64,000 bases of DNA, from positions 4,479,699 through 4,543,698 of the forward strand of contig JABAKD010000026.1 of assembly GCA_012845835.1 (NCBI GenBank), in the 5' to 3' direction. The notes below the pieces were generated by a model. The model did no database searches, was not told the DNA's origin, and saw only the letters and a program-made list of their open reading frames with translations. Position 1 is the first letter of the stretch; the number at the start of each line of letters is the position of its first letter. The translations under genes and the position numbers were made by a program. This DNA comes from Undaria pinnatifida (Eukaryota; Sar; Phaeophyceae; Laminariales; Alariaceae). Positions 6,503 to 55,455 of this stretch are shown one piece after another.

Positions 6503-6560
6503 CTTTGGCCATACTACTACCGACAGCGCGAGAAAACCTGAGGTCGTCTTCAAGTAACCC
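6503..6560 (+). pseudogene. Decayed copy of GT2 exon 1 start
   Basis: About 50 bases closely match 6708-6765 (start of the first recognised GT2 exon): the words for AILLPTA and the following GAGAAAACCT...GGTCGTCTTCAAG are shared. The frame then runs into TAA. The offset is about 206 bp, so this is a local tandem duplicate, not an exon in use. Confidence 0.8.
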
Positions 6561-6706
6561 TGCTACTATTAATAGTTCCAACTACGTATCGTATTTCGAT
6601 CGTTTACGGCGGGTAACATCTAAGTAGTCAAGTGTGCCTGCTAGCATGTCGAAAACCTTGACATTGTGTTGACTATATTGACCATGTATCAAAACGTTAA
6701 CGACAG

Positions 6707-9700
6707 GGTGGCCATCCTGCTACCGACAGCGGGAGAAAACCTTGAGGTCGTCTTCAAGGCCCTCGTGGGCTCTCTCTCGCAAAGGCTCTGGGACTCGGGG
6801 CTGCCCGGGAACCAGACCCTCCGCGTCGTGGTTTTGGACGAGAAACGCAGGGTAGAGGTTTACAGGGTTGCCGCGGGGGTAAACAGGATTGGGGAACTCC
6901 TGGCTGGGCGACGAGTGCAGCAGATTCTCATGGTAAGCTATTGGCCAAGCGGTGGATAACTATGTTTTGGTATGTGTTGTTGTTGCTGTTTTTTTTTCTC
7001 GTGTAGAGTAGTACGATCGTACCAGGTATTCGTTTTGACGTTTTTCTTGTGTGTAGTATGTTGTGTTTTTTTGGTATTTTTTTGTATGTATTTTATTTGC
7101 CAGTCCTTCTGGAAAGTATTTGTTTGTTTGGCCGTGTTTTGCCTGACTGCGGTGAGGCGGGGAGAGAGATAGACAAAATGATCAAGGTTGTGAAATAACA
7201 CGGCGAGGAGACCAACAAATGATGGCCACCAGTTTAATTGTTGTTTTCACAAGACGAAATCATCATTGTGATCGTGACTGTGAATGTGGTTGCTCTCCAC
7301 TTTTTGTCAACCGTTTGCAGGCGGAGGGCGTGACGGAGCTCACACCCAAGGGCTTCATCGACTGGTGTCGCAACGGGAGTGGCTACGAGCGGAAGCATTT
7401 GTACGACGACAAGAAGCTCAATGAGGCCGTACAGGTAATGGCAGCGCACGTTTTGATGATGACGACGGTGATGATGTTTATGTCAATCATCATGACCACG
7501 TCGATGATGCTGATGATGACGATGGTGATGGTGATCACATGGTGGTGCTTGTGATGATACTGATTTTGATGATGGTATCGATGACGGTGCATTTTATGAG
7601 GGTCGTCACACGTTTGGCGGCGGTACGCGGCTCTCAATATCCCCACAAAAAACGCCTCACCTTTTCCAGATTCCTCTTTTTATAAAAAGAAACATCCCAA
7701 ACATCCCAACACACAAGTGAAGGTAATATACCATTCTAGCAAGCTAGCCTAAAAACCCAACCTTCCATCTTAACTTGCGAGCAATGGCTTAAATGACAGG
7801 TTCCTCGTCTCCTAGACGCGATGTGCCTCGCCAAAGGCCTCACCAAAGCCTTCGCGCTGGAGTCGCGGCCATGATCTCTCACCTATTTACAACCAGCCTC
7901 ATTTTAATCCTTCTACTCGAATCCAACCCATCCCAACATCCATAACTAATCGTAATGGCTACTTTTACGAGTAGGCGCTGCGTCTCTTAGAGGCGATCTG
8001 TCTCGCCAATGGCCTCACCGACGCCTTCGCGCTATAGACCCGGCCGTCATCAGCCACCTACAATCCCATCACTAACCTTCTTGCCCTTTCCCGACCCACC
8101 CCAACCCAACCCAACCCAACCCAACCCAACCCAACCCAACCCAACCCAACCCAACCCAACCCAACCCAACCCAACCGAGTCGTTCAATCTTGCTGAGTTA
8201 TAACTTAGGCCAACCTTCCGTTGATGGCATAGTGGCTTGACGACTTCTGCCGTTTTATTTTATCTGTTGTCAGGTGTTGCGTCTCCTAGACGCGATGTGT
8301 CTTGCCAACGGCCTCACCGACGCCTTCGCGCTGGAGGCCCGGCCGTCATCAGCCACCTACAACCCCATCACGGCCGCCGCTTGGAACGCCGCAAACCAAG
8401 CGAAGAACGCCAACGAGCCGATCACGGTGGAGAACATGTCGGAGATGGGAGAGTCGGCCAGATCAGAGGCCGAGGCCAAGATGTTGGGGGCTCCCGCGCT
8501 GACCATACCGCCAGGTGAGGGAAGAAGAAACGAATAATAGTTTAATAAAACCAGAGGCCTTCTCACGAATCGAAATCAGACCAGCGGGTGGGGTCAGGAA
8601 TTTTTTGAGTTCATGCAGGTAGAGTCGGGTCGGGTCGGGTCACGAGGATTGTGGCTGTCGCGTGTCGGGTCGGGCCACCCTGACCAGGCCCGACCCCGCG
8701 AGAAATGACCTGAATCGTGAAGAATCCCATGCTAATTCCAAGTAATTGGGCCCATGAAACGGGTTTCGAGCTATAAAGAGGTTCAAAGTTAAAAGAGACA
8801 CGGCGCGTTTAGGTTTTTAATCTTTTTTTCTTTGATCTGACGATACGCTAACGTTAGTGTATAGCCCGCGCTGAGCGTGTGCCGCCAGTTGGGGGAAGTA
8901 GTGAAGCGGATCAGGAGTTATCATACTAGAAATGGCGCGGTTTGGCCTTTGTTTGGTTGAGATGGATGGACGCGCATTGAATTGAACCCGAGCACAAGAT
9001 TACACGACTTGCGCACATTTGCAGCAGCAGCAGCATCTGTGGGTGGACGCTTGGATGCTCGACACAACCCCGAAGACAACATTGCATGCATCCGACAAAT
9101 AACTATCTACTGTAGATCGTCTAGATGCAATATTGGCACTTGGAGAAATTGGGCGAGAGCTGTGTGATACAGACCCCACCCGGTGAAAGTGATCTAGATC
9201 GTGTAGATTGTGTAAATAAGGTATCCGTCTGCCCAGCAAGATATAGGTGAAGAACTAGGACTGTAGGGACCTGATGTGTCCTATGTGAGCAACGTTGTTG
9301 AAATTGATGATTTATTCGACTCTTTCGTTCCCCCGGTTTTGTTTGCGCGTGCCAGGGTTCTCCGAGGTGTTCGGCGAACATTCTAATCCCGAAAACATGG
9401 AAGCGGGGAAAGCGCTGCAGAAGGGACTGCCAACCCTCGTTTACTACTCCCGGCGGGAAGCGGGAACGCCCAAAATCTCCCCGAAGGCCGGCAACATGTG
9501 AGGATTTTCGAAGATGAATGTTATGGTAGATCGATCCCCAAATTTCGTTTGGCTCCCCATATCACCTTGCCTTGCGTGAGGAGCCGTCCGCCTCCCCCGT
9601 TCGCTGACGTTCGGAGCAGGTCAAGAAGGTCAAAAGGCAACCCGGTCAATGAACGATGGCCTAGGTATCGAACGTAAATCGCAAAAAAAAGCATTGGAAC

Positions 9701-12700
9701 GGTGTTGGATAGTGTGGTCGGTAGTTGACGAGACAGGTCAAGTCACAATTGTTTTCCCTGCCATGCGTGATATTAAATACTGGTCACATCGTAGCACGCG
9801 TCGAATTTGTTTTTGAAGTTGACGTGTTTTTGCTTTTGGAAGTTGCTTAGAGGTAGCTTTACCGCTGTAGGAAAGGACGTGCTTGGGAACTGCTATTAAT
9901 ATTTATGTTGCTTAGAAGTTGGTTTCACTAAGAATTGCTTAGGAGGTGCTCAGAAGTTGTGTATTGCTTCCCTTTCGATGTTGTACATGGTACTGTATAT
10001 GTTGTGTGTTGCTACCAGGTACCTGGTATGTTATTGGTAGGAATGCCGCCTTTGGACAAACACGGCTGTATTGTTGGTGCTCGTTGAGTCTAGGCTGTTT
10101 GTCCAGGAAGTCTAGTCTGTCTGGCGTACACGTTTTTTCAATTGTTTCCTTATTTTAACGCGATTTGTTGTCGTTGCGCCTTTTAGGAATGCCGCCATCT
10201 TCCCCGTGGACGACCCGTCGGCGGCCCCCCTTGTCGGAGACGCCACCATCGTGGTCGTCAACGACGCGCGTCACCAGCTCGAGGCTAACTTCCTGCAGCG
10301 GACCGTTCCTTACTTCTTCGAGCTCACCGGGGGTCACCCCACCGTGGCTGCTGGAGGCCGGTATCGGTGGGCGAAGGTCAGTACAACTCGCTACAACCCG
10401 TACAATCGTTGTCCCTCGATAATGCGGTGCCTCTGCCAGATGATGATACCGCACTAAAGCGGAACCCCGCACTATCCTGATATACTGCACTACAACACTA
10501 CTCTATAGAACGAGCAAGCTCGTGACAAGCGATTCATTCTCACCGCACTATACAAGAGTGCCGCTGGAATGGGTAGAGCACAAACGCGGAAGGGGCCACA
10601 ACCGTGCTTGCTTGTTTATTGCCGTGTTTTGATGAACCCCTACTTGTTGTTTGCTTTTTTTTTCTTTGGTTGTCGGGTTTGTCTTTTCAGCTCAACTCCC
10701 ACAAACACGACTAGTTTTGTTTATTTTTTTTGGTGGCTTTTGTCCAGAACTTCCTCCCTGGAGCTCTCTTCATTATGGTGTTTTTTTATGGGATGCCTGT
10801 TGTTTCCTGCTCAACCCGCAGGAGGTTCTACAATCAACGTCTTCCTGGACAAGCCGTGGTCACAAATGTCTCCCTTGCGTTTCCTCTCCGCTTAGGTTAC
10901 TCATTTGCGTTTTGTACAACCATATACCTACACGAAAACTCGCAGGAGCTTTTTGCGCTCAAGTAACCTTCTGGATAAGCCGCCACGACGGGTGTTTTTC
11001 TTTCTCTCTGCTCTCAGCTTAGTCTACTCCTTTTCCTTCTTTTATTCGGACCAAATACCGGGTTCGAAGCGTCTCATCTGAAGTCATTTTTACTTTGTTT
11101 CTACCCAAGGAAAAGTTGTCCTCTCCGCCTTAACGCTGTTTTTTCCCAGTCAAACACCCAACGCTAACCCCCCCCCCTCCCGTTTTTCGTTGCCGTGCAG
11201 GTTGCATTCGTACAGACGCCGCAGCGTTTCAGAATGGAGCTCACCAATGACCCTCTGGGCAACCACGCTATCTCCCAGTACGACGTCATCAACCACGGCA
11301 AAGACGGCATCGGAGCTGTTTCCTCCAGTGGACAGGGCAGCTTGTGGCGCGTCGAGGCACTCAAGGGCCAGCGTCCTGACGGGGTGATTGTGGATGACCC
11401 GAAGGACCTTAGCTTGGTCGGAAAGAAGCTCGGCTTCCGGTCAGAGATGCTTATCGAAGACACGCACACGTCCATCGAGCTCTTCCGGCAGGTGAGAAGT
11501 AGGACGCGAAATTGTGACGATCGTGATTGGAAAGAAAAAAACGTCACGGTGATGATAACGGTGCTTAGAATGTTTTTTTTTTTTTTCACGATCGTGATAC
11601 CAAAATAGGTTACGGCGATGATAACAATGTTGAGGATGGTGGTCGAAAGCAGATAATGCTCATCGAGGGCACGCACACGTCAATCCAGCTCTTCCCCCAG
11701 TTTTTGTAGTTTTTCCGGCATTTTCTATCGCTCAACATGTTTTTTATCTCTATGGCGTTTTATGTCACTTGTTATGGCGTTGTGTATCACTTAACACGAC
11801 GTTTTTATCATTGTTGTGACGTTTTATTACTACTGCGGCGTTTTTTTCAAGGGGTGGCGCAGCGTGTACGTTAACGAGCCAGGAGAGGTGTTGGCGTGGT
11901 GCACGCATCAGCCGTCCAGCCTCACGTGGCGTATCAAGCAGGTTCTTAGGTGGCATCAGGGCGCCGTGCAGCTGCTCCTGTTCAAGGGCATCCGCTACAC
12001 GAGTTTTGGCGGCCACTTCCCTACGTTGTGGCATCGTCTTTACGCGTTCGATCAGGCCACCTACTACCTCCAGGTGACTTTTGTTACGGTCGTTTTAAAG
12101 CACGTCACTGTCAGTTGTAGTGGTTGTAACGGTCGGTTGATGTGGCGGTTGTAACGATCGGTGTTTGTAGCAGCAGCCATAACGGTCAGTTGTTACAATG
12201 TCGCACCGGTCGGTCGTTGTAATGGTCAAAGCGGTCGGTCTTTGCAGCGATCGTAACGGTCAAAGTTGTAACGTTCATAATATCGCCCGGTCGTTGTAAT
12301 GATCGTACCGATCGAAGCTGCAATGGTGACAATAACAGTCTCTTGTTCTAGCGGTCCGAACGCTCGGTCGTCGTGATGCTCGTCACGGTCTGTTGTTGTA
12401 GCGATCGTAGCTGTCGGTGGTTGTAACGGTCGTATCGGTCGGCTGTTATATTGCGGTCGTAACTGTTGGTTGTAGAGGTCGTACCGGTCGATTGTTGCAA
12501 GGTTCGTAACGGTGGGTTGTCGTAGCGGTCGTAACGATCGGTGGTATTCACGCTTATAACTGTGGGTTGTTGTACTTGTCGTACCGGCGCGTAATTTTGT
12601 ACCCCTGTTTGTGTTGTCATGGTGCTGATCATGCCCAGGCTATCCCGGGGTACGTGCTGCTGATCATGCCCATCGTATACGGAATCACGGGAACGCCCCC

Positions 12701-15700
12701 GTTCGTAACCAGGTACGTTTTGTGGTTATTGTAATGTATACTATACACTATTATACTATACACTATTATACTATACACTATTATACTAGTATATTATATA
12801 ATATTATACTGCCGGGTATTATATTACATTCTATTATATTCTATTCTAATATACTACCAGGTATATAATATTCTATTATGCAAGCGAAGCGAAATTATAG
12901 TTGCCGACGGCGCCCAAATACAGGCGCTCGTTTCCAGCCTGGCGTGCGCGATTTTTGGTGTGAATGTCCCACACCCAACGACACTAACCCACTTTAACCC
13001 ACTTTTTATTTTGATGTTCAGTTTTTACTCGTCCCATCTATTCTCTCGACACACTTTTTTATTGTCTCCTTCTCCCTCTCCTTCTCCCTCTCAGATTCGG
13101 GGTGACTAAGCACAGTTAAGCAGGCACAGGCACTCCCCCCCCTCCCCACTACTGTTGTCGCCTTCGTTTTTTGTCGCGCAAGACTCGAGCTATTTCTTCC
13201 CTCGTCCACTCGCATCGAATTGTGCCTCGCCAAGCTGCTAGGCGCTCTCAGCTGTTGATTTCTTTGATACCAGTATGTATATTTTTGCGAATAAGCTTAA
13301 AACTCCGATCCACGTGGGATTCGAACCCTATTCATAGAATACTCACTAGTATATCAGTATTAGTACTAGTATTTATACTACCTGGTAGTATTTTAGGGTA
13401 AACACTACTACTAGACCACCGGGGCGACCGACCGACCGACAGACTGTAAGGCCTGATGATAACGTCAATTGACATCAATTGACATCCATTGACGGGAAAG
13501 CAATTATTGGTGGGGTTGGGTTGGGTTGGGTCGGGACTTTCCTACTTTCCACCAAGGTACACACACAACACGCGGTTACAAATATCCACCAGCGCGAGTT
13601 CCTATTTTTGCGAGAGCTTTACTGGTAGTGTCTTTATGTCGCGTGTTGATTTGCCTTCGTGCGGAAAGTAGATTTGTTTGTGGCGTATCGGCATATGGTG
13701 GTGCTGGTGCTTGTTTTTGTCAAACATCTCAGGAGACGGCGGATCAAGAGAAATGTCTAGCGGTCAAGGGTGTCGAACCGGTCGTTCCACACTAAAACCG
13801 TAGTTTGGGGTATAATGCTGGCCCTCTCCCAGGCTTCCATGTGGCTGCTGGCCCGCACGCTCTGGCCTTTACATATCTGTGTGCGTTGACATTTACGGCG
13901 GTGCGTACCCATTGTAACGCCATTGTAACACCATTGTAACACCATTGTAACACCATTGTAACGCCATTGTAACGCCATTGTAACACCTTATAGGACCATC
14001 CGGTGCCCCTGGCACCTGGTAACACATTTTTGGTGGTGGGACCGGGTAAATCGACCTGTCACGAATACTAAACTACCTGGTACTTGGAATGAGCATTGGG
14101 TCATTTTTTCAATAGTAAAATACCGTGTTGAAGACAAGGGCATGACAGAAATTAGACCACGCTTCATTCGCGTTGTCACGGGGTGGTATGAACCCCTTTA
14201 AAAGAGCCCCACACCGCTTCCCTGTAGTAATTCCAAGCAATTTCAGATCAAAAGGGTTTCCAATTGTAAAGGCATTAACGTGGGTACACCACTACTACTG
14301 CACGTATTTTCCATGGCTGATGTTCCACGCGAAGTATACTGCTGACCACATGCATCCCTCTTTCGACGTTGCCACCTCTGTCGACGCCACGCCACACGGC
14401 CCACACGGCACTTCACACCACACACCACATCACTCCAGCTTGAAGGACTACTTCCAGTACTTCACGCCTTTCATCGTGACGGCGCTGCTGCCGACCGCCA
14501 TCTCCAGCCAGTGGCGCAAGATCGACTCGCACCGCCTCACTCGCGACGAGCAGACGTGGCTTTCCACAACCTACGTGCAGATTTACGCGTTCCTACAGGT
14601 GAGAAGCATTCCGGGGGGAAAATTTTGCCAAGACGAAAGAAGGCGACCAAATCGAAACCTAATGGAAGAATCGGTCGGGTTCTCGTGTGTGTCACTCTAT
14701 GTTGGTGTGAGGCTCTGCTGTATCTATAGCGTGTAGTGTGTAGAGCAGGCTTCATCTGAAGAATGAAAAGCTATTCCGGGTAAACATGGTAATTTCTAAT
14801 ACACTCATGGTTGCTAATGGGAAAAGTAGAGAAGTGTTCGAACGTATAAGTTTGCTGTTTATAGGAGTTATATTAATGGTGGCTTATGTTTAAGTTTACT
14901 ACCGGAATACAAAACAAACGCGGGTGTGCCCCCCCCCCCCGTGTTGTTTATGTAGTTGATTCTGCTAACGATGGATGTCGGTAGTATTAACAGCGCAATT
15001 CATCTGCCCCACTCGCCGACCTCCTGTACAATGGTACCAGGTACCTGCTAATATTGATGGTTATTTTAACTGTTGTTGCGGATAGTATGGCTATGCTCAC
15101 GATAAGTTAGCGTTTGTTTGATACTTGTTGTGATATAGCGTTGTGCGTGTGGTGGCACTGCATTTTTTGGGAGATTTTTGCTATTTTTGTGATGGAAGTT
15201 TGTTGTGAAATTTTGTTGTGAAAGTTGCCTTTTTTTTTATTGTGCTTCCCCCTCCCGGACCTTTCCCATCCCCTTGCCCTTCTCCTTCCTTCTTTCCTTC
15301 CTTTTTTCTTTCCTTCTTTTTTTCTTCACCTCTCTCTCTTTCTTTCCCTTCTGCTCGCGTTCTCTTTCCTTCCCGTTCTTCCTTCCTTTTCTTCCCTTTG
15401 TCCTCCCTTTCCCTGTCCCGTTCCTCGTCCTATCCCCTTCTGTTGTGCTGTATGTGCTGTATGTGCTATATTTTTTGTCTGTTGTCAGGTGGTATGGACG
15501 GGTCTGACGCGCAAGAGCCCTGAAAACGCGTGGGTGGCGAAGGTGCCGACATGGCCGCTGACGTTCGTGTTCCTGGGCCAAGTCGGTGCCGTAGCAGGGG
15601 GTGTGTACTGGGTCGTCAAGAACGGTGAGAGCAAGCACACTATTAATACTGTAGTGCTCCCTCTATAGTGCGGATTGAGCAGGGCCGGTTACCCGCTGCA

Positions 15701-17655
15701 GTGCCTGTGAAACGAGAAAAATGCTTAACACAGACTACCGTAGTGGTCCCTCTATAGTGCCGGTTGCCCGCTGTAGTGCCTGTGAAATCGCTTGGCACAT
15801 ATGGGAAATACCAGTATTGGCAGCATGCGGAGTAGTACCGGTATTTCTGGCTGGCGCACACCGGTGGTATTATTACTTGTACTGTAGAGGAGCCACTACT
15901 GTGGTGGTAGTATTGAGTACACTCAAATGGTGTTGTGATGATTGACTTGTGTGTTGTGATTTGCGAGGTGCCTGGCGGAACTTTTGTGAGATGTATTAAT
16001 TGCGATAGTCTGGCCTTAACGTGTATTGGTGTGCGAATTTCGTGGATGCAATGTGCGTGTGCTATATCGTGTAATATATTATTACCATACCATGGGTGTG
16101 CCGTCAATGTGTTATGGTGGTCTATTAATTGGAGGTTTGGACGCAGTAATTTGTAGTGTACATTATTCGAGTGTTTTTGGTGGGGGAGAGATATTAATAC
16201 TAAGCATCACAAGGGAATTGTTGTGTTCGGGGAGGACAAATGGCAAGGTGGTACAATACCCTTCAAACATGTATATACATACGAACAATATGCCTTTTTT
16301 TTTCAGAACGTGTTTTTCTTTCATCTTTTTTTTACTTTCCAGCTCATTTTTTTTATTTTTTTTTGTACTTTTCAGCTCAATTCGTATCATACTTGGAAGT
16401 TTAGTAAGAGGCGTTTATCCTCAGGGACCTTGTGGACAAGCCGCGGTCACAGTTGTCTTCCTCCCCCCCCCCCCCCCTCCCCGCACTCTTATGCAAATTA
16501 TGGAACGAAAACACTTGCGGTAGTTTTGTTTTTTGTCGACCGGGTAGGGTTCGTACTTATTTTAGTATCTGTGCATGCAATGCCTATGTTCGTATTCAGG
16601 AGTATTGGATGGTACTGAATAGTGCTGGATAATGTAACGACACTGTTTTGTCTTTTGTCGACCCGTCAGGTTTTGTGCTTTGGTACGCGAACTTCTTTAG
16701 TATCATCGTCGTCGCGGGGTTGGCTATGCACGCGCTGTGGCCCATGGTGTCGCTCAGCCTGGGGTGGACGATCCCGTCCTTCTACTACATCAAGGTATGT
16801 CCTTGGTCCTTCTATCATGTGTCATACTCTCACCCCACGCGTGCCTCGATACGGGTATTATTAGCACCTTTTCTGTGTGTCTTTGCTCCTCGGCTGACAC
16901 ACTGCCTGATATCCGGTATCGCTGGATTTCAAAAATGTTGTTCGATAGATATCTAGGCGGTGGGATTTTGAGCATGAGATGGCGCTTACAAGCTTTCTCG
17001 TTTGCCGGGTTTACCCTCTTTATAGCCCTTCTTGTACCAATTCCAAATAGTTTGGCCCCAAACACCCAAACAAGAGGGTGAAGCTGAGCAGTGGAAGAAG
17101 CAGGGTAAGCAACAGGGAGTTGTTTGTCCCACAACCATAGAGTGTGTCGTCTTCAATTTCTTGCTGACGGTTTCTTTGACTACGGCAACAAATGACCCAC
17201 CTCTATTTTCACGTATACCTGGTGGTAGTTTTTCGGCATTAATTTCCTATTAATCATTTTTTTCGACTATGGCAAAAGTGACCCAGCTCTATTTTCACGT
17301 GTATCTGGTATTAATAGTATTAATAGTAGTAATAGTAGTAATAGTTGTTTTGTTCCCCCAGACGCAAGCGAAATCCTGTAAGAGGTCAAGATGACGTTTT
17401 TATTTCGTAGGCGATGGCTCAGAGTTTCCCGGACTGGTTGCAAAATTTTACCGCTAGCTATGCTATGCGATTCTCCTGCTCTACGCCGTTACCTTACCCT
17501 CCTCCCTCCCTCCTTTCCTCACTCCCTGCCTCCCTCCGTGCCTGCATGACTTTCGTCTGTGGTATTATGTTGTATGTTCTATTCCTTTCCAGCTGTTCCT
17601 GTGGATTTTCCTGGGTTTCAGTGCTGTTGTTCTCGCCAACGTGTTCCAAGAGTGA
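6707..17655 (+). CDS. Cellulose-synthase-like GT2 glycosyltransferase (BcsA-type core), 12 exons, 5' end missing
   Basis: Processive family-2 glycosyltransferase of the plasma membrane, expected to polymerise a beta-glucan from a UDP-sugar. Exons: 6707-6932, 7321-7434, 8274-8514, 9356-9497, 10187-10376, 11201-11491, 11852-12073, 12639-12712, 14247-14598, 15489-15624, 16670-16794, 17593-17655 (TGA). All junctions are GT-AG and keep frame, giving about 724 residues. Signatures in order: VAILLPTAGE (start of the GT-A fold), VVVLDEKRR (DDG site), LVYYSRREAG then KAGNMNAA, VVVNDARH (DxD site), FVQTPQRF, SGQGSLWRVEAL, IEDTHTS (TED site), GWRSVYVNEP and QVLRW (QxxRW). After these come several hydrophobic segments, then a short tail ending VFQE with no PilZ domain. 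About 175 residues separate LDEKRR from LVYYSRR, longer than in bacterial BcsA. Odd: DxD reads DAR and DDG reads DEK, so it may be a divergent synthase-like member rather than a true CESA. The first exon starts mid-codon, so upstream exons (N-terminal helices) must exist; none was recognisable in 1-6700. Confidence 0.9.
7806..7905 (+). pseudogene. Decayed copy 1 of GT2 exon 3 (5' part and acceptor flank)
   Basis: Matches 8280-8375 of the functional exon: CGTCTCCTAGACGCGATGTG, GGCCTCACC and TTCGCGCTGGAG are recognisable. A deletion after GCGGCC breaks the frame. It sits in intron 2 and is followed 174 bp later by a second copy. Confidence 0.85.
7980..8075 (+). pseudogene. Decayed copy 2 of GT2 exon 3
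   Basis: Matches 8280-8375 over about 95 bases, including CGCCTTCGCGCT and GGCCGTCATCAGCCACCTAC. An in-frame TAG has replaced the GAG codon after GCGCT. It lies 300 bp upstream of the functional exon, making three graded copies in tandem. Confidence 0.88.
8101..8176 (+). repeat. (CCAAC)n pentanucleotide array
   Basis: About 15 nearly perfect units, in GT2 intron 2, between exon-3 copy 2 and the functional exon 3 acceptor at 8273. Confidence 0.97.
8590..8705. repeat. GGGTC-rich dispersed repeat
   Basis: Blocks of GGGTCGGGTC followed by CCACCCTGACC, with CCCGACC on the far side. A related copy lies at 36150-36355 (GGATCGGGTC units, then CACCCTGAC, then CCTGACCCGAC), and weaker traces occur at 30740-30825. 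It is in GT2 intron 3. Confidence 0.6.
11650..11700 (+). pseudogene. Decayed copy of GT2 exon 6 3' end
   Basis: Matches 11444-11491 (ATGCT...ATCGA, GGCACGCACACGTC, CAGCTCTTCC). The acidic catalytic codon GAC is changed to GGC and the donor site is lost. The intervening intron words (CGATCGTGAT, GATGATAAC) are duplicated too, so about 205 bp was copied in tandem. Confidence 0.83.
12085..12610. repeat. Degenerate GTAACGGTCG minisatellite in GT2 intron 7
   Basis: Long run of irregular units built from GTCGTAACGGTCG and GGTCGGTTGTTGTAACG. It ends just before the exon 8 acceptor at 12638. No coding signal inside. Confidence 0.8.
12735..12880. repeat. AT-rich TATACACTAT tandem words
   Basis: Repeats of ACTATACACTATTAT followed by TATTATAT runs and TACCAGGTAT. 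In GT2 intron 8. Confidence 0.7.
13010..13435 (-). repeat. tRNA-derived SINE-like element, family C, minus strand
   Basis: Read on the minus strand it starts with GCCCCGGTGGTCTAGTAGTA (A-box-like). It continues with GGGTTCGAATCCCACGTGG (B-box), CTGAGAGCGCC, CAATTCGATGCGAG and GACGAGGGAAGAAA. The same order occurs on the plus strand at 795-1065 and 55470-55730. Boundaries are approximate. Located in GT2 intron 8. Confidence 0.75.
13909..13988 (+). repeat. 11-bp tandem repeat (CATTGTAACRC)n
   Basis: About seven near-perfect units of CATTGTAACAC/CATTGTAACGC in GT2 intron 8. Confidence 0.95.
15230..15470 (+). other. Long pyrimidine tract upstream of the GT2 exon 10 acceptor
   Basis: About 220 bases almost purely C and T, with CCTTCCTT-type words. 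It lies immediately upstream of the acceptor at 15488 and may act as an extended polypyrimidine tract. Confidence 0.7.
15635..15790 (+). repeat. Tandem pair of about 80-bp units (CCTCTATAGTGC)
   Basis: Two copies share CTCCCTCTATAGTGC/GTCCCTCTATAGTGC, CGGTTRCCCGCTG and AGTGCCTGTGAAA. GTGCGGG words related to these recur near 10440-10540 and 30055-30190. In GT2 intron 10. Confidence 0.75.
16523..16590 (+). pseudogene. Decayed copy of GT2 exon 11 5' edge
   Basis: GTTTTTTGTCGACC...GGTTCGTACT...TTTAGTATC parallels 16648-16705 (GTCTTTTGTCGACCCGTCAG, then the exon start through TTTAGTATC), offset about 125 bp. The acceptor CAG is mutated. Confidence 0.7.
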
Positions 17656-17900
17656 GCTGTACCTGTTTGCTTCCTTTCCTCATTGAGGGGGTAAACAGGA
17701 AAGAAGTGAAAAGGGACTGCCGCTTAGTGAAGAACTGGGGATGGCCGTTGCCCTGTGTTTTACCCTGTGTTGGTCGACTGTCCTGCTTGGCTGCTTCGAG
17801 GATGCCGAGGCTTGCTTTGGCGTTGGCTTGCTTTGGCGTTGGCTTGCTTTTGGCGTTGGCTTTACTTGGCAATGGCCTGGCGTTGTCTTGGCTTGGCGTT

Positions 17901-17945
17901 GGCTTGGCTTGGCTTGGCTTGGCTTGGCTTGGCTTGGCTTGGCTT
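17901..17945 (+). repeat. (GGCTT)n pentanucleotide array
   Basis: About nine units, preceded by degenerate TTGGCGTTGGC words from 17818. It lies 245 bp after the GT2 stop codon. Confidence 0.92.
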
Positions 17946-18257
17946 GACGGTGATGAGCAGACCGTTTGTCAGGCAGGCAGGCGTTCGAATAATACTTGTT
18001 GCGCTCTTCGCGCGTCGTCTGATATTGTGGTATTTCTTCCGCTTTGTTTGGCGGTGTAGCCTATGCAGGTACTATATGGACGGCGAGCAACGCCTGGTAC
18101 TTGGGAGTAGCATGGAGTGGCATGGCTTAGCGTGCCACTTGAGAGAGAGAAGAGAGAGAGAGAGGAGAGGGAGGAGAGAGATTAATCGACTCCACGATCG
18201 TGTCAAAGTCGAAGGTCTCGAGATGTTTTTGTTTTTTCACTGTGATATAGCCGTGGA

Positions 18258-19247: not shown

Positions 19248-19300
19248 CCGTGCCGTGCCGTGCCGTGCCGTGCCGTGCCATGCCGTGCCATGCCATGCCC
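19248..19300 (+). repeat. (CGTGC/CATGC)n pentanucleotide array
   Basis: Ten units of CGTGC with CATGC variants toward the right. Confidence 0.92.
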
Positions 19301-23132: not shown

Positions 23133-23420
<288 letters not shown>

Positions 23421-23457
23421 TCCGATATGAAAGTCGTGAGAACGCGAGGAGGTTGTT

Positions 23458-24650
23458 AAGGAATTAGTGAGGTGTTAAGGTATTATTAGTGGGGTATTTG
23501 TCCGTTTGACCACTTGCAAAACGTTAACCGATAGCTTACCCAAATTAAGCCTTATAACACTCCGCCCCTGAAACGGCGGGATAGCAGGTCTGCCGGATGT
23601 ACGGGCGGACCTGTCAATTATCCAAGCCGTTTCATTTCCTGGGTATACCGGGGAGAGTATTTTTCAAGTTCGACATGGGGAAAGTCTGAAAAAGTTTATT
23701 ACATGGTGGATGGTGGGGATCGAACCCACGACCCAAAAAACCCATGGTCTGTCGACGACGCCATTTGTTAAGGTTACTGCTGGTGGGGTATTAGTCCGTT
23801 TGACCACTTGCAAAAGGTTAACCAGTAGCTTCCCCAAACTAAGCCTTATAACAAGGTGGAGATGACAACATCAAATGTTCGATAAAGGTATAACGGTACA
23901 ATAGACCACGATAGAGGTGTGTACACACTACAATGTTAAGGTATTAGTGGGGGGGGTATTAGTGGGGTATTAGTCCGTTTGACCACTGACAAAAGGTTGA
24001 CCTATAGCTTACCCAGACCAAGCCTTATAACACAGTTCCCCCCTGAAACGGCGGGATAGCAGGTCGGCCGGATATACGGGCGGACCTGTCAATTGTTCAA
24101 GCCGTTTCATTTCCCTTGAGTATGCCGGGGAGAGTATTTTTCAAGTTCGACATGGGGAACATCTGAAAAAGTTTATTGTGGTGGTGGATGTGGGATTTGA
24201 ACCCACGACCCATAAAATCCATGGTCTGTCGACGACGCCATTTGTTAAGGTATTAGTGGGGCATTAGTCCGTTTGACCACTTGCAAAAGGTTAACCAATA
24301 GCTTACCCAAACTAAGCCTTATAACACTCTTCCCCCCTGAAACGGCGGGATAGCAGGTCGGCCGGATAAACGGGCGGACCTGCCAATTATCAAACCGTTT
24401 TATTTCCTGTGTATACCGCGGAGAGTATTTTTCAAGTTCGACATGTGGAAAGTCTGAAAAAAATGATTATGGTGGATGTGGGATTTGAACCCACGACCCA
24501 AAAAACCCATGGTCTGTCGACGACGCCATTTGCTAAGGAATTAGTGGGGTATTAGTCCGTTTGACCACTTGCAAAAGGTTAACCAATAGCTTACCCAAAC
24601 TAAGACTTATAACATTAACCTATAGCTTACCCAGACCAAGCCTTATAACA
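23458..24650 (-). repeat. Tandem array of tRNA-derived SINE-like family A
   Basis: Units of about 300 bp start near 23458, 23770 (truncated), 23935, 24246 and 24536 (truncated). Each full unit carries GTCCGTTTGACCACTTGC, CCTGAAACGGCGGGATAGCA, AAGTTCGACATG and a reversed tRNA-like 3' segment (TGGATG...GATYYGAACCCACGACC; B-box complement), ending CTGTCGACGACGCCATTTG. An inverted single copy lies at 26430-26790. Confidence 0.85.
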
Positions 24651-24654
24651 GAGG

Positions 24655-30916: not shown

Positions 30917-33900
30917 TTAAAATTGAATTGGTGAGCCAGAACCGGCCGTCAAACGGGCCAGGAGGCCGGGCGGGGGGTGGTCATGTGTTCCCATCATGCG
31001 CGCCATGAGGTTGGCAACGAATCCTTGGTCGAAAGGATTGTAGTAGTCCCCACTGTGGTTCGGCGCGAGCAGGTAATCTACGCGCGATAAGGCGCGGTGC
31101 TCGCTCGTCGTCAAGTTCTTGTGGATGAGTTGCCTGCAAGAGAAGCAGGTAAGGCAAGGCAAGGCAAGGCAAAGCAAGGCAAGGCAAGGCAAGGCAAGGC
31201 AAGGCAAGGGAAGGGAAGGCAAGGCAAGGCAAGGCAAGGCAAGGCAAGGCAAGGCAAGGCAAGGCAAGGCAAGGCAAGGCAAGGCAAGGCAAGGCAAGGC
31301 AAGGCAAGGCAAGGCAAGGCAAGGCAAGGCAAGGCAAGGCAGGGCAAGGGAAAGCAAGGCAAGGCAAAGCAACTTAAGGTACAGTATAGCAGTTATCCAG
31401 GCGAGTGCACACCGAACGGTCGACAAGTCTTACTGCTTTCAAAACACGAAACAATTACAGCCTTTCACACACACAAAAAAAAGTGCTCTCAACCCCCTTG
31501 GACAATACCATTTCCTATCGTACATACCACAAGGTTATGTTCTGTAGGGTTTGTGGATTACGGGTAAGGGTATGGGAGCCTTACAGAACTTCCAGAAGCT
31601 CCGGGCACGGGTCGTATGGAAGTGTTACAGAAGTCAGAAGTTCCGGGTATTGTGGCACGGACGGGCGTACATAACTCAACAGAAGTTCTGAACGGGTACA
31701 AAACATGCTGTATCCGTACCCCGGGTATTGTGGCTTGGGTCGCAAATAACTCGCAGAAGTTCCGGGTACGGGTATGAAAGTCTCACAGAACTTCCACAAG
31801 GTCCGGGTATTGTGACACGGGCGTACAGAACTTACAGAAGTTCCGGGTATTGTGGCACAGGCGTACAGAACTTACAGAAGTTTCGGGCAGGTATGAAAAT
31901 GCGGTACCCGTACCCCGGGTAGTTGTGGAACTGGCGTACATAACTTACTGAAGTTCCGGGTGCGGATGAAACCCAGGTAAATACACGGCCTCGGGGAAGG
32001 AGTTCGATTTGAAGTGGAGGACCCCATTGAGCTTGCATGGCACGATATCACTGGGCCAACGTCCCCGAGGCAATCCATCGTACCTTTGAGAGCTATCGAC
32101 AACCACCACCGCGGCGATAAATCGTGAACCTCAATGAGTGCCGACCGGGGCAGCAGCCGCGCTCACGTCCACTACTGTTCTGTAAGAGACCAATCATACC
32201 ATAGCGTACATCGGGTGTGGCGCCTCAAAACAAATAATGCCGGTCGCAAGCCCAATTTTGCCACCAGCTCGATAAGCCAAGGGCCACGACAAAGAAGCGA
32301 CCGAAAACACAGAGGATAGTTCAATACTTCGATGATAGCGAGATCGGCATCATTCCGATTGGAAAAACACATTGACAATACGTATCACACGCAATACGCA
32401 ATACGTGGTTTCCCGTTAGGAGGAAAACTCGTACCAGGTACGATTGTATGTTTCCACCAAATCGAATCGAATTCACTTCGATTCATTAAAAAAGAACATG
32501 TTCGATTCAAAAGTGTCCTTCGTTGATACGTGCCCTTAGCAACGAAACAAGCGTCAACAGGTGCTATTATTGTCTGATACGTACTGCTGTCGTTCGGCGT
32601 ACGGTTTGCGTGACTGACACAACATGACATCATAATGCAAAATACACCCTTCGGATTAAACCTGAATAAATCCAGAGCACCCCGGGTATTGTAACAAAGG
32701 TATACCCGTACCCCGGGTATTGCGCCACAGTCTTACAGGAGTCACAGAAGTTCCGGATACGGATACGAGAGTCTTACAGAACTCCCAGAAGTCCCGGGTA
32801 TTATGGCACAGGCGAACAAAACTCACAGAAGTTCCGAGCGGGTACAAAAGATGCTGTACCCGTTCGCCGGTATTGTAGCCACGGGCGTACAGAACTTCCG
32901 AAGTTCTGGGTACGGGTATAAAGGTGGTACAGAGCTTACAGAAGTTCCGGGTACGGGTATGAATGCCCTACAGAACTTACAGAAGTTGTTTGGAGGGTAA
33001 TACCCGGGGTAAATACCATACCCCGGGTATGGTTTGTACGTACCCTGCAGAACACAACATTATTATATATATATCATGTCATACGTACACAACCAATCAC
33101 ATCGCAAAAAAACATAAGGATCTCAGCCATCTTGGGCAATTCCGCCATTAAATTCGAGATCCCTAGATGGTTGAGCATAACGTATCACCTTACGGCCAAA
33201 ATTGCTCCATTGCTCCATTGCTCCATTGGACGCCTCGATTTAAGAGCAGTCCGAGACAAACAGAAACAGGCGCTCACAACTGCGCATTGCTCTTATCTGT
33301 AACGGGCAATAGACGACTTTTGGTATGGCTGACACACCGATTTGATAGCTCTGAAGTCCCGGATGCTATTGTATTGGACCTCCTAATCGGGGTACAACCC
33401 TATCGTAGCATGTTTCGCTGGGCAGTGCATCGCATCGCACTACGTACCCCAGCCCCGCCCTGCCCCGCCCCGCCTCACACCGTACTCACGCGTGGTAGGA
33501 TAAGAGGAAACACCCGAAGAAGCCGAAGAATATCGAGTACGCGCCGGTAAACAGCACCACAAAGCTCACCGACACGTTACATAACCACAGAAAGCACATC
33601 ATCACGTAAAAGATCACGCTGCCGATCGTTGGAGTCGAAAACGAGTGCGTGGCAGCACAACGAGGCGGAACGCGGGGGGCGGGGGCGGGGGGGGCGTTGG
33701 AGTTGCGAACTAACGCGCGAGAGAACACGGACACAATGAGGCGGGGTGTGTGTGTGGGAGGGGTCGTTAGAGTTGCAAATGAGGACGTGACACACCAACA
33801 ACGAAATAACGAGGCGGGACGTGTGTGGAGGAGGGGAGGGGGGGGTTGAGACGGCATGAAAACCATGGCATGAGAGTGAACAGGCGCATGCGTGCACGCG

Positions 33901-38395: not shown

Positions 38396-41300
38396 TAGCT
38401 TTGGTGCTTGCGTGTGCTAGGGTAAAACGTTCTGGGGGTATCAAGGAGAGCGCTCTACAGCCGGAAACCACAGGCAAGGAGGCAGTACGCTACAAAAAAC
38501 GCGTGCTGCGGTAAACGGTTACCCAAAATGCTGCAAGGCATCTCAGGTACGAAGCTCCCTACAAAACGATACCCCAGAATATCACACAAAACCCCACAAA
38601 ACTGACTGCCTTTCAGTAAAAATGATACAAGTGCAAAACTCGATGAACAAGCTCATGGCGTAGGTGTGACGAATAACAATATAACAACACCACCAACAAC
38701 AATCACAACATCAATAACACTAAATGTAAAAGGCATGACGGTATTCCAACGTTGTTCTGGATACACTTCGTTCAACCCAGGCTAGGCTAGGCTAGGCTAT
38801 GCTATGCTAGGGTGGGCTAGGGTAGTAAGTAAGGGTTATATTGTTGTTGGGGCTTGTTTTTGCAGCGGCTCGGGGCCGTTTGCGCGAATCCCTATAATAG
38901 CGGTTTAAAGCTTTCGTGCTGTTTTAATTGTGCGATATGAATATGAAATGGAATGGTAAGCTACACTGCGCAAAAAAAACGCCCAAACTATTTTGTCCGT
39001 AAAGTACAGAGGCACTCGTGTGAGTGGTGAAAACCCGATAGTGAGCGTGTGGGTATATCATAACGTCATGATAACATCATGATAACATCATGATAACATC
39101 ATGATAACATCATGATAACCCATAGCATCATCATAACATCATCATAACATCATCATAGAATCATCACAGCATCATAACATCACCATAACATCATCATAGC
39201 ATCATTATAACATCATCATAACATCATTATAACATCATCATAACATCATTATAACATCATCATAACATCATGATACGAAGACCATGATACTAAGACAATT
39301 ATCACAACATCCCCCTACCAATAGCGTACCGTAGCTTTACTCTACCACATAGTCAGGAATTTTTTCGCCAAAAAGAGGTACTGTTTGTCTAACGATGTTC
39401 CGGATATATTTCCTCAATCGAGTTTTACGACACAGTCAACATTTTGGCAAAAAAAAGGTACTGTACAGCTATGGTGTCAAGCGTCTGCCCTCGCGGCATC
39501 AAAAACACGCCGAGAGGCTCACCACCAACGCTACCCTAACCCCTCTAGCGCAGCACTCCCGACAAACGACAAAGCACTTGGGAGTGGACTAGGAACAAAA
39601 CCATCTGTTAGTTGGACAATTTTTTGAAGGGCGTATTAAAGGACTTACCATCAAAGTCACGTTGAGGACCAGCGGCCACCGAGAACCCTGAAACCCTTGT
39701 CCCGTCTCGCACGCCGCCTTCCACACGTTACGAGTGCGCGCCAACTTCAGGCACACCCTCGGGCTCATCCACGACTGCCCCGCCCCACTTGTGCGCAAGA
39801 ACAACTCCATAGGGCCCTGAGGAAGCATCGTCGCGATTGGGTTTTTTGGGTTTGTAGCAGATATGAAAAATGGAGGAGGGACACGACAGGCATGGGTCAA
39901 GGCCACCATTTGGCACCCTACTGGAAGCAATTGCCGATTGCCTGTGGACGTTCTAATAAACACGGGAGCAGGGGGAGGGAATTATGCGTCGGAGTCTTTC
40001 GTTCGATGGGTCAAGGCCACCATTTGGCACCCTACTAGAAGCAGTTGCCGATTGCCTGTGGACGTTCTAATAGACACAGGAGCAGGGGGAGGGAATTATG
40101 CGTCGGAGTCTTTCTTTCGTTCTGAACGAAAGAAAGACTCCGACGCATAATTCCCTCCCCCTGCTCCTGTGTCTATTAGAACGTCCACAGGCAATCGGCA
40201 ACTGCTTCTAGTAGGGTGCCAAATGGTGGCCTTGACCTAGGGGAGGAGGGGCGGGGTGGGGATGGGGGTGAGGGAATGAAGGTCAGAGGGGTGGGGGGGG
40301 GTGGGGGGGGCTGAGAGCGGTGAGGAGGGGGGGGGGGGTTGAGAGCGGTGGGGGGGGTGGGGGGGGTCGAAACGCGGCGAAGCACTAGCAGAAGCACTAG
40401 CAGAAGAGCGGTCGCAAGCGTTTAGCCATGATCACAACCACAGCAACGACCGATCACTACCCTTACGATCGCGTGCGGCCCCAACCATGGCTGTGCTCTC
40501 CGAGGAGTACAGCCGGCGCGTCTAAGTGGAGCAATCAATCACCAATCATCAATCAATCACCCATAACACAAACTAATCTAAACAAGCGACAAAGACAGTG
40601 GCGACGGAATCCCCACCCACCCTCCCTTCTCCCCCAACACCCGCTGTTCGTTAATAACCGCATTGGAGCTCCAGAAGGAGAAAAAAAATGTCGGAACCAA
40701 ATGTTGAGTACAGCATCGGCGTCAGGAAACAAGCCTTTTCTCATGAGGTAGAGGACCTATCCGAACCAGAACTGTAGTGTAAGAAGCCGTAAGGCACAAC
40801 GCACCGAACGGCAACACCGCCATCCTATAGGCTTGAACAGATCCATCGCACGCGCCGCTTCTTCGGTCGGTACACGTACATTGGTCGGTATACATTGGTC
40901 GGTGTACATAGGTCGGTGTACACTGGTCGGTGTAAATGGATTCCAAAAGAGTCAACCATTTGTGTTGGTGACTGAACCCCCCCCCCTCCGTCCATCCCCC
41001 TCCAACCCTCCCAACCCTCTTGTTGCAAAAGAGTTACGTGTTTACGTTCGGGACGGACGCCGCCCCCCCCCCCCCCGCCCGTCCCTCCGTCCCCTCTCCG
41101 ACAAACCCGCCCTCTCGTTTCCTGGCTGCGAACCTCCACGCATTTCTTGCCTGTTTCTTCCTGATGGCCAGATCCAGCGGCGTCTCCCTCTTTTTGTCGC
41201 GGACGTTCAAGTTGACCTTCGCCTGATAACACCAAGCGGGAGGGCGTGGGGGGGGGGGGGGGGGGGGGGGGGAGGCGTGATCGCTGGGACTATCATATCA

Positions 41301-46688: not shown

Positions 46689-49600
46689 GCAACAGCAATA
46701 ACAACAGCAGCAACAGCAACAACAACAAGGTTAATCCCACCATCCCACCTGCTTGTCGCGTCCTTCTGGATCCGCGCCCCCCGGTCCAAGAAGCCACGCC
46801 GACGCCCTCAACCTCCCCTCCGTGGCTGCCCAATGCAAAGGAGCCATACCGACAGCATCAGTGCTGAACTCGGCCGTGGGGCATCCGGCGCCTGTTCGAA
46901 TGCGAGACAACCGTCCACGTTGCCGTGGTGCACGTCATGACACAATACATTGGGCAACATTCAATACATCATGATCACGTGATGATACGTCATGATGCAA
47001 TACTTGCAAAATGCGTCGGACTCCAGTCAGCATGTCTTCATGGCAGTTTTGATACTACCTATCTTGTGGCGATGTACGCATCGTTACATTCGTACAGCAT
47101 TATTGGTGTTGATAAAGATTTGTTGTCGTGAATGTCAATGTGAAAATATGAATGAAACCAAATCTAGTACCGTATATTGTTATGATAATTGATAATAATA
47201 GTTACAAAAGTATTAGACTATAGTATTAATAGTATATTATCGCCCGTCACCACAGGAATGACAAATCAGAAGGTACGCCAGCTAGCGTTGGATTGCGACA
47301 GGATTGAGCTAAATAGGCACAAGTGTGAAAATACCTGGAAGTGTGGTGAGCTTGAGCTTCATTTTTTGTTTTTCCCCATCTGCCGGAGAATTAAGAAAGT
47401 TTTTGTATTATAAGAACATACGTACAACCTTGGGGTGTTGGTAATAATAATACTGATAATACTACTAATTATTCTTGAAATAAATTGTTGCCGCATGTAT
47501 TTAGTTTAGACTAGGGTTATTATGAATAGTAGTCGTGCAGTACTATTCATAGAGTAATAACTTGACACTCTCAATACCGGTTGGATGGTAGTTTCATTGA
47601 ACGAAATACCAGGTGGAAATGTAATAGTTTCAGCTTTTGTCCTTCTCCGTTCGGGCTACATAGTGTCAGTGCGCAGAATGCTTATGGACCCAGATCGCCC
47701 GCCCTTGGTAACATTGTCCTGTTGATCCTGGCGGCGTCCACGGGGGTCACACATGTTGAAAGAGTAATGCATCAGTACAAAAGCGCGACCGGAGTATTAC
47801 GCAGCTTGCAAAGATAAGTATCGACCCTTAAATTGATCGAAGGTCACAGCTGACGGATTCGACACAAATGCGCATTTTGATATTTTTACATTTTGATATT
47901 TGTATATTGTCGTCAATTTTACTTTCCATTTCAACTCGCAGGAGCCGTCGAACTCAACGACACGGCTTCTGGACAAGTCGTGGTCGACGCCACAGCACAT
48001 AGAGCATGCCAACCACCTGCTAAGAGAAAGCCATGGCATAATAGCAGTACGTATAGCATACCCAACAAACTGCTGAGAGCAAGCCGTGGTAACTGTACAC
48101 ATATAGCATACCAAAGACCATACCATACCAAACACCTGCTAAGAGTTGCAGCAGTTCCACCTCCCCCGACTTTGCCGCCCAGTGCATGAGCGTATGCCCC
48201 TGCCCATCCCGCCGCTTTAAGGCGCACGTCAGCCGCTCCGATCGTACTGAACACAAGCGCCTCACGGCGTTCATGTTCCTAGCGCGGACAGCGACGAGGA
48301 GCTGACTCGCGATCGTTGCCTCCTGGAAAAGATACGAACAAAACCGGGGATATATCAGATTCAACCCCGCGTCAAATACACGGCTGAAGCTATTGTAATC
48401 GGGAGGCTGCGATTAATAGGAGGATTGACAAATAAAAAAAAAGTAACCTTATCGACAGCCACAAGGAGTTGGTTTGCGATGGTCGCCTCCTGCGCATAGA
48501 TGAAGAACACAATAGGGGACACGTCAGATCCAACCCCGCATCAAGCATGCTGCCGAAACTATTGCAATCGGGAGGCTGGGAGGATTGACAACGTTCGAGC
48601 AACCTCATCGTGAGCCACGAGAAGCTGGCTTGCGATGGTCCCTCCTGTGAAAATATAAGAAAAAAAGGCGAGGGTAGATCAGATCCAACCGCGCGTCAAA
48701 CATGCAACCGAAGATTGTGCTCCTCCTGCGCAGAGATATAAAGCCGGGTTATGTCACACCTGGTATTATTTGTATCCCCGTGCCAAAACATGCGGCCGAA
48801 ACGCCAACAACAACAAACATCAACAGGACGATTGACAACGTAACAAGCAAAAGGGTAACTTCGTCCTATTCGTCATCGATACTGCTGACCAAGCTGAGCG
48901 GGACCTTCTCCATGCACTCAGAGATGCTCATGGTCCGGCGTTCTGTCGGCTGTACCAATATCCCACCAATTAACTCTCTCGTAGTCTATAAACCCCACCG
49001 ATTAGTTGTCTCGTTTTCATTTTGTCCACAACAACGTAATGTGCCTATGATAGGATGAAAAAAAGAGCGCCGCCAGTGGATGTGCTGGGTGGTCGTTGAG
49101 AACAACAATAACGTTACAACGTGAACACATCACACACAAGACGCCCACACCAACACAACACCGCTATCTCCCCACTACACGTGCACACACCAGCAACAGG
49201 CCAACTCGCGCTAAGCTTTTGCAACAAGCAGTGCAATCAAGTGATTCACAGCACCGCGCAGATCAACTCACGCTGAGCCTTCCGACGTCAGTGTTTTCCT
49301 CCCCAGGCACGTCCGTCACAACCGCACCCCCCAACCCACGCCGCATCTCACCCCCCACCCCAACCCCTAGCCCGCTCCCTATCGTAGGCGGGATCAGCGA
49401 CATTCTCGCTGCCGCTGCCAAGACATCATCAGGCGCCCCCCTCAAGCTCTCTTCGAGGTCACTCGGCAGCAGGCCACCCAGACCCTTCGCCTCGCCCCCA
49501 TCCAGCCCGGGCATGCCCCCCGCTCCCATCGGCAGCATCTCCATCCCTGGCTGCACCAACCTAGGCCCTCTTCCCAAGGCACCCCCGGCAGGCTGTTGGT

Positions 49601-50226: not shown

Positions 50227-50437
50227 CGCCCGAGACTTGCTTTCGGGAGCACGAAAAACGGCGGCAGCTTCGTTCAGTGCGCCTTGGTCAAGTTTGACCT
50301 TGGTACAGTACTGCCGCCGAGAAATTAGCCGCCCGAGACTTGCTTTCGGGAGCACGAAAAACGGCGGCAGCTTCGTTCAGTGCGCCTTGGTCAAGTTTGA
50401 CCTTGGTACAGTACTACTGCAAAAAAAAATTAGCCGA
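50227..50437 (+). repeat. Tandem duplication, about 105 bp x2
   Basis: CCCGAGACTTGCTTTCGGGA through CCTTGGTACAGTACT occurs twice almost unchanged; each copy contains CTTGGTCAAGTTTGACCTTG. Confidence 0.96.
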
Positions 50438-54360: not shown

Positions 54361-55156
54361 CATCCTTCCAAAAACCGCTCGTAAGACGGACTTCGGCACC
54401 TTGTGCCTACTTTCTTGCTCATGGATGACAGCGCCAATAAGTTATACTCTGTTTTCTGGTGTAACCACTCCAAAGACAGCAATGGGTATTACTATGTAAC
54501 TGCCTTGTGGGTGCCTTACCATATTCACAAGTACGTGATGCGACCATTCCCCTTGTGCTGAGTTGGGATTCTCCACCCCGCACAATATGATCTACTCGAT
54601 AAGCATCATGGTGACCGCCCAAAAAACAAAAACGGTACCATGGTTGTCTAGCTCACGCAGTGAATGGCATGTTTTACGGCATCGTTGCCAACCAACGCCG
54701 ACCCCAATATACACACAATGTTTTACAGCGCCGATGCCAACCGAGGCTAACTATTATACCAAGGTGTATATATTTTACGGGGGAAATCTAGGGGTGCGGG
54801 GGTTCTTCCGAGTTGTACGGTACGTCTCCCGAAAATTGCCTTCTCGCCAAAGGGAAGCCACCAAAACACTGTGCTTTAGCTCCCACCAACAAACGCCAAA
54901 CTACCGTATCTCCAAAGGGAGCCACCAATAGCTCCCATCAACACACGGCTCCCGATAACTGCCTTGTCGCCTAAGCTCCCCACCAACACACGACATGACC
55001 CAACAAAGAGTGCACTATGAGACGCGCGTGGGGCCTTCGACGCGCTCTGATAGACGCGGACCACGAGAAACAGGAGTCGTTGTAGCCGCCCTTTGTGTTG
55101 CTATTGCACACATATCGTAGTTACTCGTAAAATAGAAGACGCGCTACCATACAACC

Positions 55157-55455
55157 GGTCGCCCCGGGTGTGGTGGCGTATCAGGTCATCCTCGAGCCTG
55201 GTATAGGTCAGATTCGTGAGTTTGAGCCCCGCCGAGTACATACTCGTATAAATTCGTTGGGACTTTTTCTTGTGCACAAATTGGCTTGCGGAAAGCGCGA
55301 GAGCATGAGTTCGCAACACTCGATGAAAAATCGACGAGCAGTGGGAGTGCTGAACCCTATGCGAAATACAAATTGAAGGCAAGAACAGGGGGGGAGAAGA
55401 GACGACACCTGTGACCACGGCTTGTCCAGAAGCTGAAGAGTGGAAGTGTGAAAAA
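55157..55455 (+). repeat. tRNA-derived SINE-like element, family B, copy 3
   Basis: CCGGTCGCCCCGGGTGTGGT, GAGTTTGAGCCCCGCCGAG (B-box-like), GTTCGCAACACTCGATGAAA and ACCACGGCTTGTCCAGAAGC, then a poly-A tail (AAAAAAAAAA at 55452). Confidence 0.87.

Follow-up and report, generated by a model that had tools for sequence, protein, structure and literature searches.

Small local direct duplications and decayed exon copies in a 64-kb stretch of the Undaria pinnatifida genome

Introduction

When several exons of one gene have decayed copies of their edges in the neighbouring introns, the question arises whether exon edges are singled out for copying or whether short segments are copied wherever they lie. 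This question is raised by a gene on the plus strand of a 64,000-nucleotide stretch of Undaria pinnatifida DNA (contig JABAKD010000026.1, positions 4,479,699 to 4,543,698), which is the window of the present analysis. An initial annotation of this DNA had noted such copies in four exons of a glycosyltransferase (GT2) gene and in a second gene (gene 2), and had suggested as their source a genome-wide process that duplicates short segments in tandem, enlarges introns and leaves decoy splice sites and exon fragments behind.

Results

Gene models

To begin with, eleven exons of the GT2 gene were placed on the plus strand. Exons 1-8 (6707..6932, 7321..7434, 8274..8514, 9356..9497, 10187..10376, 11201..11491, 11852..12073 and 12639..12712, respectively) are separated by GT-AG introns throughout and together encode 499 residues in an uninterrupted frame. 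For exon 1, the position of the junction is uncertain, as an ATG near 6685 could place the junction within a longer first exon. Exon 9 (14340..14598) was delimited by an open frame and a donor, its start being assumed, while exon 10 (15490..15624), also with an assumed start, was read by eye and is absent from the scripted exon search. Exon 11 lies at 16670..16794. Twelve exons had been claimed for this gene, but a twelfth was not found. When compared with the PDB, the 499-residue frame matched 13 distinct sequences, all of them cellulose synthases or like them, with a best E-value of 6.8e-10 over residues 377-492. Moreover, single-exon matches to the Pfam family Cellulose_synt (PF03552) were obtained for exons 6 and 7, scoring 22.1 and 23.9 bits, respectively, just below the curated cut-off of 24.7. 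Exon 7 also encodes QVLRW, which we take to be a QxxRW-type motif. By its match to family sequences, the plus-strand gene is a cellulose synthase-like GT2 gene. A pattern of exon 7 was also matched in six stretches of viral contigs, none of which was confirmed.

On the minus strand, open reading frames matching the ankyrin and DHHC families of Pfam were found, which probably belong to a single gene, gene 2. The ankyrin exon of this gene (48136..48322, minus strand) lies in an open reading frame that matched Ank_2 with 24.8 bits (cut-off 27.3). No Rfam match was found in the DNA at the gathering thresholds.

Copies of exon edges in the two genes

The local copies that had been described for exons 1, 3, 6 and 11 of the GT2 gene were all present, in direct orientation, with spacings of 122-474 bp and identities of 81-92%. 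In particular, the head of exon 1 (6709-6758) recurs at 6506..6554 (92%, spacing 203 bp), and the head of exon 3 recurs twice, as copy 1 at 7798..7897 (best part 7806-7885 against 8280-8359, 85%, spacing 474 bp) and as copy 2 at 7973..8072 (against 8272-8371, 89%, spacing 299 bp), both of which start at least about 360 bp into the intron. The tail of exon 6 (11447-11491) recurs downstream at 11656..11700 (84% ungapped, spacing 209 bp), while the tail of intron 10 together with the head of exon 11 (16645-16680) recurs at 16523..16558 (81%, spacing 122 bp), all on the plus strand.

Both edges of the 11 exons were compared with both 600-bp flanks, resulting in 44 comparisons, each with a null of 245-252 chunks located >3 kb away. 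Seven comparisons exceeded every null chunk, namely those of exons 1, 3, 6, 11, 8 and 2, plus the 3′ edge of exon 3. The scores for exons 1, 3, 6 and 11 were 76, 145, 55 and 37, with largest null scores of 24, 33, 24 and 29, respectively, so that chance, which had been named as what would refute the copies, was outscored in all the far-chunk controls. Exon 8 was an added case (31, null maximum 24); two 35-bp tandem units lie there at 12620..12689 on the plus strand (best match 12620-12637 with 12655-12672), the first of which straddles and carries the present acceptor. The 3′ edge of exon 3 is a further candidate, with a score of 31 against 24 over 37 columns at 78% identity, 372 bp downstream. 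The match of exon 2 (35, null maximum 23) was dropped, as it corresponded to a GATGAT-type simple repeat within the intron. For exon 5, an exact 13-mer at the acceptor edge (10184-10196) recurs upstream in intron 4 (10038-10050), a weak match with a P-value of 0.036.

That the exon copies are assembly artefacts or chance matches is scarcely credible, given that their scores lie above all nulls and that their divergence from the exons, ranging from 8% (exon 1) to 19% (exon 11), exceeds ordinary sequencing or haplotype error; the palindrome at 40011-40235, described below, might be an artefact, and nothing of the kind was found for the exon copies. A dispersed repeat as their source was also discarded, since the five copies checked had no second same-strand site in the window at a score of at least 30.

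Further products of local copying were found within the introns, including an intronic local pair at 15647..15787 (plus strand, spacing 89 bp, 73%). Altogether, tandem arrays or local copies accounted for 1,505 of the 8,069 intron bases of the GT2 gene (18.7%), a figure based on hand-picked repeat rows and on the assumed starts of exons 9 and 10. The contribution of local copying to introns that had been proposed is therefore visible within this gene.

For gene 2, an array of units of about 167 bp was found directly upstream of the ankyrin exon (48323..48712, minus strand), each comprising an intron tail, an AG and an exon head of about 42 nt (length by eye). The 5′ edge of this exon scored 54 against its own flank, with a null maximum of 22. 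For the donor of this exon, a weak repeat was found (22 bp, 91%, E=0.99), which in the masked test (score 18, P-value of 0.26) did not exceed the far-chunk controls. Four other exons of gene 2 were tested, with the masked 5′ flank at 34727 left out of the comparison. Among these, the edge of 46317-46449 gave a P-value of 0.004 (24 vs. 22) and that of the exon ending at 46749 gave values of 0.017-0.029, neither of which was counted. At least two exons with such copies had been claimed for this gene; one of them stands (48136-48322), while a second was not confirmed among the four others.

Local duplications across the window

The masked window was divided into 100-bp tiles, and a tile was taken to have a local copy when a match with a score of at least 30 was found within 600 bp. 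A total of 88 out of 570 tiles had such a copy, compared with 0.16% of 11,400 far comparisons. Applied to 50 kb of E. coli K-12, the same test gave 3 out of 500 tiles, and applied to a 1-kb-block dinucleotide shuffle it gave 3 out of 640; neither control provides a eukaryotic norm, as the shuffle removes all repeats and E. coli is not a eukaryote. By class, local copies were found in 6 of 28 exon-touching tiles, 7 of 62 intron-only tiles and 75 of 480 tiles in the rest of the window, gene 2 included. The exon-touching tiles did not differ significantly from all others (82 out of 542; Fisher P-value of 0.42) or from the intron-only tiles (P-value of 0.21), although a two-fold enrichment could be missed with this small number of tiles. 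Thus, the special recurrence at exon edges that had been proposed was not borne out, and exon targeting as a candidate explanation gains no support from the tile counts.

A total of 44 local pairs in 24 clusters were found, whereas the density of far pairs predicts 0.53 pairs. At spacings of 20-100, 100-200 and 200-300 bp there were 8, 14 and 10 direct pairs, and 0, 2 and 3 inverted ones, respectively, which makes 32 direct and 5 inverted pairs altogether, with 10 self-palindromes at distance 0 left out of the inverted count. Per 100 bp of spacing, direct pairs numbered 10-14 in the range of 20-300 bp and 0.03-0.07 in the range beyond 4 kb; at 2-4 kb inverted pairs were commoner (11 vs. 2 direct). 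Within the window, the general local-copying process that had been suggested is therefore upheld by the excess of pairs and by the peak of direct ones at short spacing. In direct orientation and short spacing, these pairs are small local direct duplications, and they are found irrespective of gene structure, a modest enrichment at exons being possible.

Among the duplications of the window, a 114-bp segment outside the placed exons is repeated head to tail at 39892..40119 (96%, no spacer), and at 50227..50415 a duplication with a spacing of 103 bp has 86 identical bp. The first of these, a young case, is head to tail without a spacer and those at 50227 and 51279 nearly so, unlike the copies of exons 1, 3 and 6. 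Moreover, a local pair at 44472-44898 (84%), outside the placed exons as well, has a gap of 118 bp, which suggests that spacing itself is not specific to exons.

Other repeats were also observed in the window. A 225-bp near-perfect palindrome (40011-40235, 99.6% self-complementary) follows the 114-bp tandem, the whole extending over 39892-40235, and might be a young fold-back or an assembly artefact. Long pentanucleotide arrays appear at 8090-8176 (CCCAA), 17809-17946 (GGCTT), 19248-19299 (CCGTG), 31147-31372 (AGGCA) and 34770-35403 (AAGGT), and a related 13-bp unit, AGCCGTTACACGT-like, forms two arrays at 43168-44446 and 45801-46275. Several copies of units of about 290 bp (87-90%) are located at 23454-24653, adjoining a (TTA)93 array (23137-23411). 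Finally, a dispersed repeat, possibly a mobile element, appears at 2159-2477 and 55155-55452 (80% over 325 columns).

Ends of the copies at the splice junctions

The copies had been described as spanning an exon-intron boundary. This is clear only for the copy of exon 11, which comprises 25 nt of intron and 11 nt of exon, and for the gene 2 exon. For exons 1, 3 and 6, the recognisable part of the match lies within the exon, and its distance from the placed junction is 0-6 nt, varying with the alignment settings. When homology between the intron flanks was sought with cheap long gaps, the copies of exon 1 and exon 6 and copy 2 of exon 3 gave none (shuffle P-values of 0.12, 0.53 and 0.44, respectively). 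Marginal homology was found between exon 3 copy 1 and the flank of the exon itself (0.018 against shuffles, 0.21 against other flanks), between the flanks of the two exon 3 copies (0.084 and 0.024, respectively) and for the flank of exon 11 (0.018 and 0.09, respectively). In an earlier flank test with other gap costs, 2 out of 11 comparisons had P-values below 0.05 (0.027 and 0.020). Furthermore, simulations were run with the observed divergence, assumed indel rates, flanks of 150 bp and random letters for the exon; of the 400 runs in each setting, no more than 0.7% failed to detect a duplicated flank that had decayed at the measured rate. Together with the absence of clear flank homology, this implies that the copies of exons 1, 3 and 6 are not simple whole-unit duplications unless their intron part was later lost or replaced. 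Whole-unit duplication followed by neutral decay is an incomplete account for these three exons.

Two additions to this account were considered. The preferred one is that the intron part was lost or replaced at a later time, and templated copying bounded by the exon is the bolder one. According to the former, the duplications crossed the junction, and the intron part with its splice signals was subsequently deleted or scrambled, perhaps with the help of selection against a harmful competing splice site. The missing donor GT in the exon 6 copy and the missing AG in the exon 1 copy agree with such a loss, as does exon 3 copy 1, whose marginal alignment to the intron tail requires a gap of about 26 nt in the region of the pyrimidine tract. 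However, the AG is kept in the copies of exon 3, exon 11 and gene 2, and flank homology is marginal or absent. Later loss is rather doubtful, while still being the more plausible of the two. According to the latter, exon fragments ending at junctions would reach nearby introns either as templated insertions made while a break is repaired or by way of RNA. Simulated simple duplications almost never gave matches ending at a junction, as those of exons 1, 3 (two copies) and 6 do at 0-6 nt and in the absence of clear intron homology; nevertheless, the exon 11 copy and the gene 2 array cross the junction, only three exons are involved, the junction of one of them (exon 1) is uncertain, and the spaced pair at 44472-44898 shows that gaps (118 bp, at 84% identity) also occur outside the placed exons. 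In addition, the exon 6 copy is followed by T-rich sequence and not by exon 7 (by eye, unscored), on which ground an origin from spliced RNA was rejected. On balance, copying bounded by the exon is improbable.

Decay and splice signals of the copies

Codon-aligned blocks of 32, 27, 15 and 11 codons were available for exon 3 copy 2, exon 3 copy 1, exon 6 and exon 1, respectively, with exon 11 and the part of exon 1 beyond a deletion left out of the count. Within these blocks, 19 nonsynonymous and 19 synonymous changes separated the copies from the exons. The synonymous share expected for a neutral copy and an exon changing only synonymously is 0.42 (P-value of 0.32), and 0.26 if the change is in the copy alone; as both exon 3 copies have one exon partner in common, the counts are not independent. 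The exon copies thus decay about neutrally.

With regard to the splice signals, each exon 3 copy has an in-frame stop, and both keep the AG. In the exon 1 copy the AG of the junction is missing and a 1-nt deletion causes a frameshift, while in the exon 6 copy the donor GT is not kept and the Asp of EDT is replaced by Gly, with no stop. The AG is also kept in the exon 11 copy, as are pyrimidine-rich tracts and the AG in the copies of the gene 2 array. Consequently, of the decoy splice sites that had been claimed, candidates are present in the exon 3, exon 11 and gene 2 copies, where the AG might be recognized, but not in the exon 1 copy, without the AG, or the exon 6 copy, without the GT.

These observations also bear on the idea that the copies serve a function, as alternative exons or as mutually exclusive ones. 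Tandem exon duplication has been linked to mutually exclusive splicing (PMC9013439), and the exon 6 copy is free of stops. However, the copies of exons 1, 3 and 6 span only 45-100 nt of exons that are 226-291 nt long, no GT was seen by eye immediately where the exon 3 matches stop, and splice sites were lost elsewhere; together with the stops in both exon 3 copies, the frameshift in the exon 1 copy and the 19:19 changes, this led to the rejection of functional alternative exons, which are very improbable.

Discussion

Most probably, ordinary small local direct duplications have arisen throughout the window and then decayed neutrally, with exon edges not being targeted. Many such duplications, with spacings of about 70-300 bp, have accumulated, both in the introns and between the genes as well as across exon edges. 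Where part of an exon is duplicated, the partner included in the mRNA would be held by selection, while the intronic partner decays about neutrally. Since selection holds one partner, exon pairs should be recognisable for longer than non-coding pairs. The duplications probably originate from staggered breaks whose error-prone repair involves fill-in and end joining, and the short-period arrays from slippage. The process may act genome-wide. A more elaborate reading, in which this genome copies 50-300-bp segments locally with an unusually high frequency, exon copies are made or trimmed at the splice junctions, and introns fill with disarmed exon fragments available for re-use as exons or splice sites, is unlikely.

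If the whole genome has this density of duplications, a measurable part of intron length would come from small local duplication, and intronic exon relics, with selection holding one partner of each pair, would provide internal clocks. It would also be a warning to annotators that such relics are not to be called exons. Otherwise, the duplications would represent ordinary genome turnover. For context, a median autosomal intron of 524 bp and a tandem repeat content of 3.35% of the genome are given for Ectocarpus (PMC12477816). In the titles and abstract openings covered by a literature search, no report of such a density in such a genome was found, which does not prove its absence.

Several known systems resemble the present case in part. 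The duplications here are short and direct, and some are head to tail, like the small tandem duplications described from the repair of breaks with protruding ends (PMC8355091, PMC5730883), although PMC8355091 refers to insertions of <100 bp, while several of the present copies exceed that length or have a spacer. In the Exonize catalogue (PMC12343006), exon copies that stay within the gene and are partial, inter-boundary or intronic, like those found here, are reported in more genes than full-exon duplications; the full-exon events, in approximately 4-7% of vertebrate genes, are a different class. Exon duplication within genes is also described for the brown algal ROCO genes, which undergo LRR exon shuffling (PMC11378527), but there whole functional exons of 72 bp are involved, whereas the copies here are decayed fragments. 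Finally, intron gain by tandem duplication has been reviewed (PMC3443670), and a close published precedent is provided by a potato RdRp gene, in which a tandem duplication across an intron-exon boundary copied the putative branch site, the pyrimidine tract and the AG, thereby creating a new intron, and in which a further 83-bp duplication lies within an intron (PMC4974935). The gene 2 array likewise repeats an intron tail and an exon head with a pyrimidine tract and an AG. The potato copy is spliced, with RNA-seq support, while the copies described here, as read from DNA, look like intronic relics. Judged by what is reported for the potato gene, the present case is another example of a known phenomenon.
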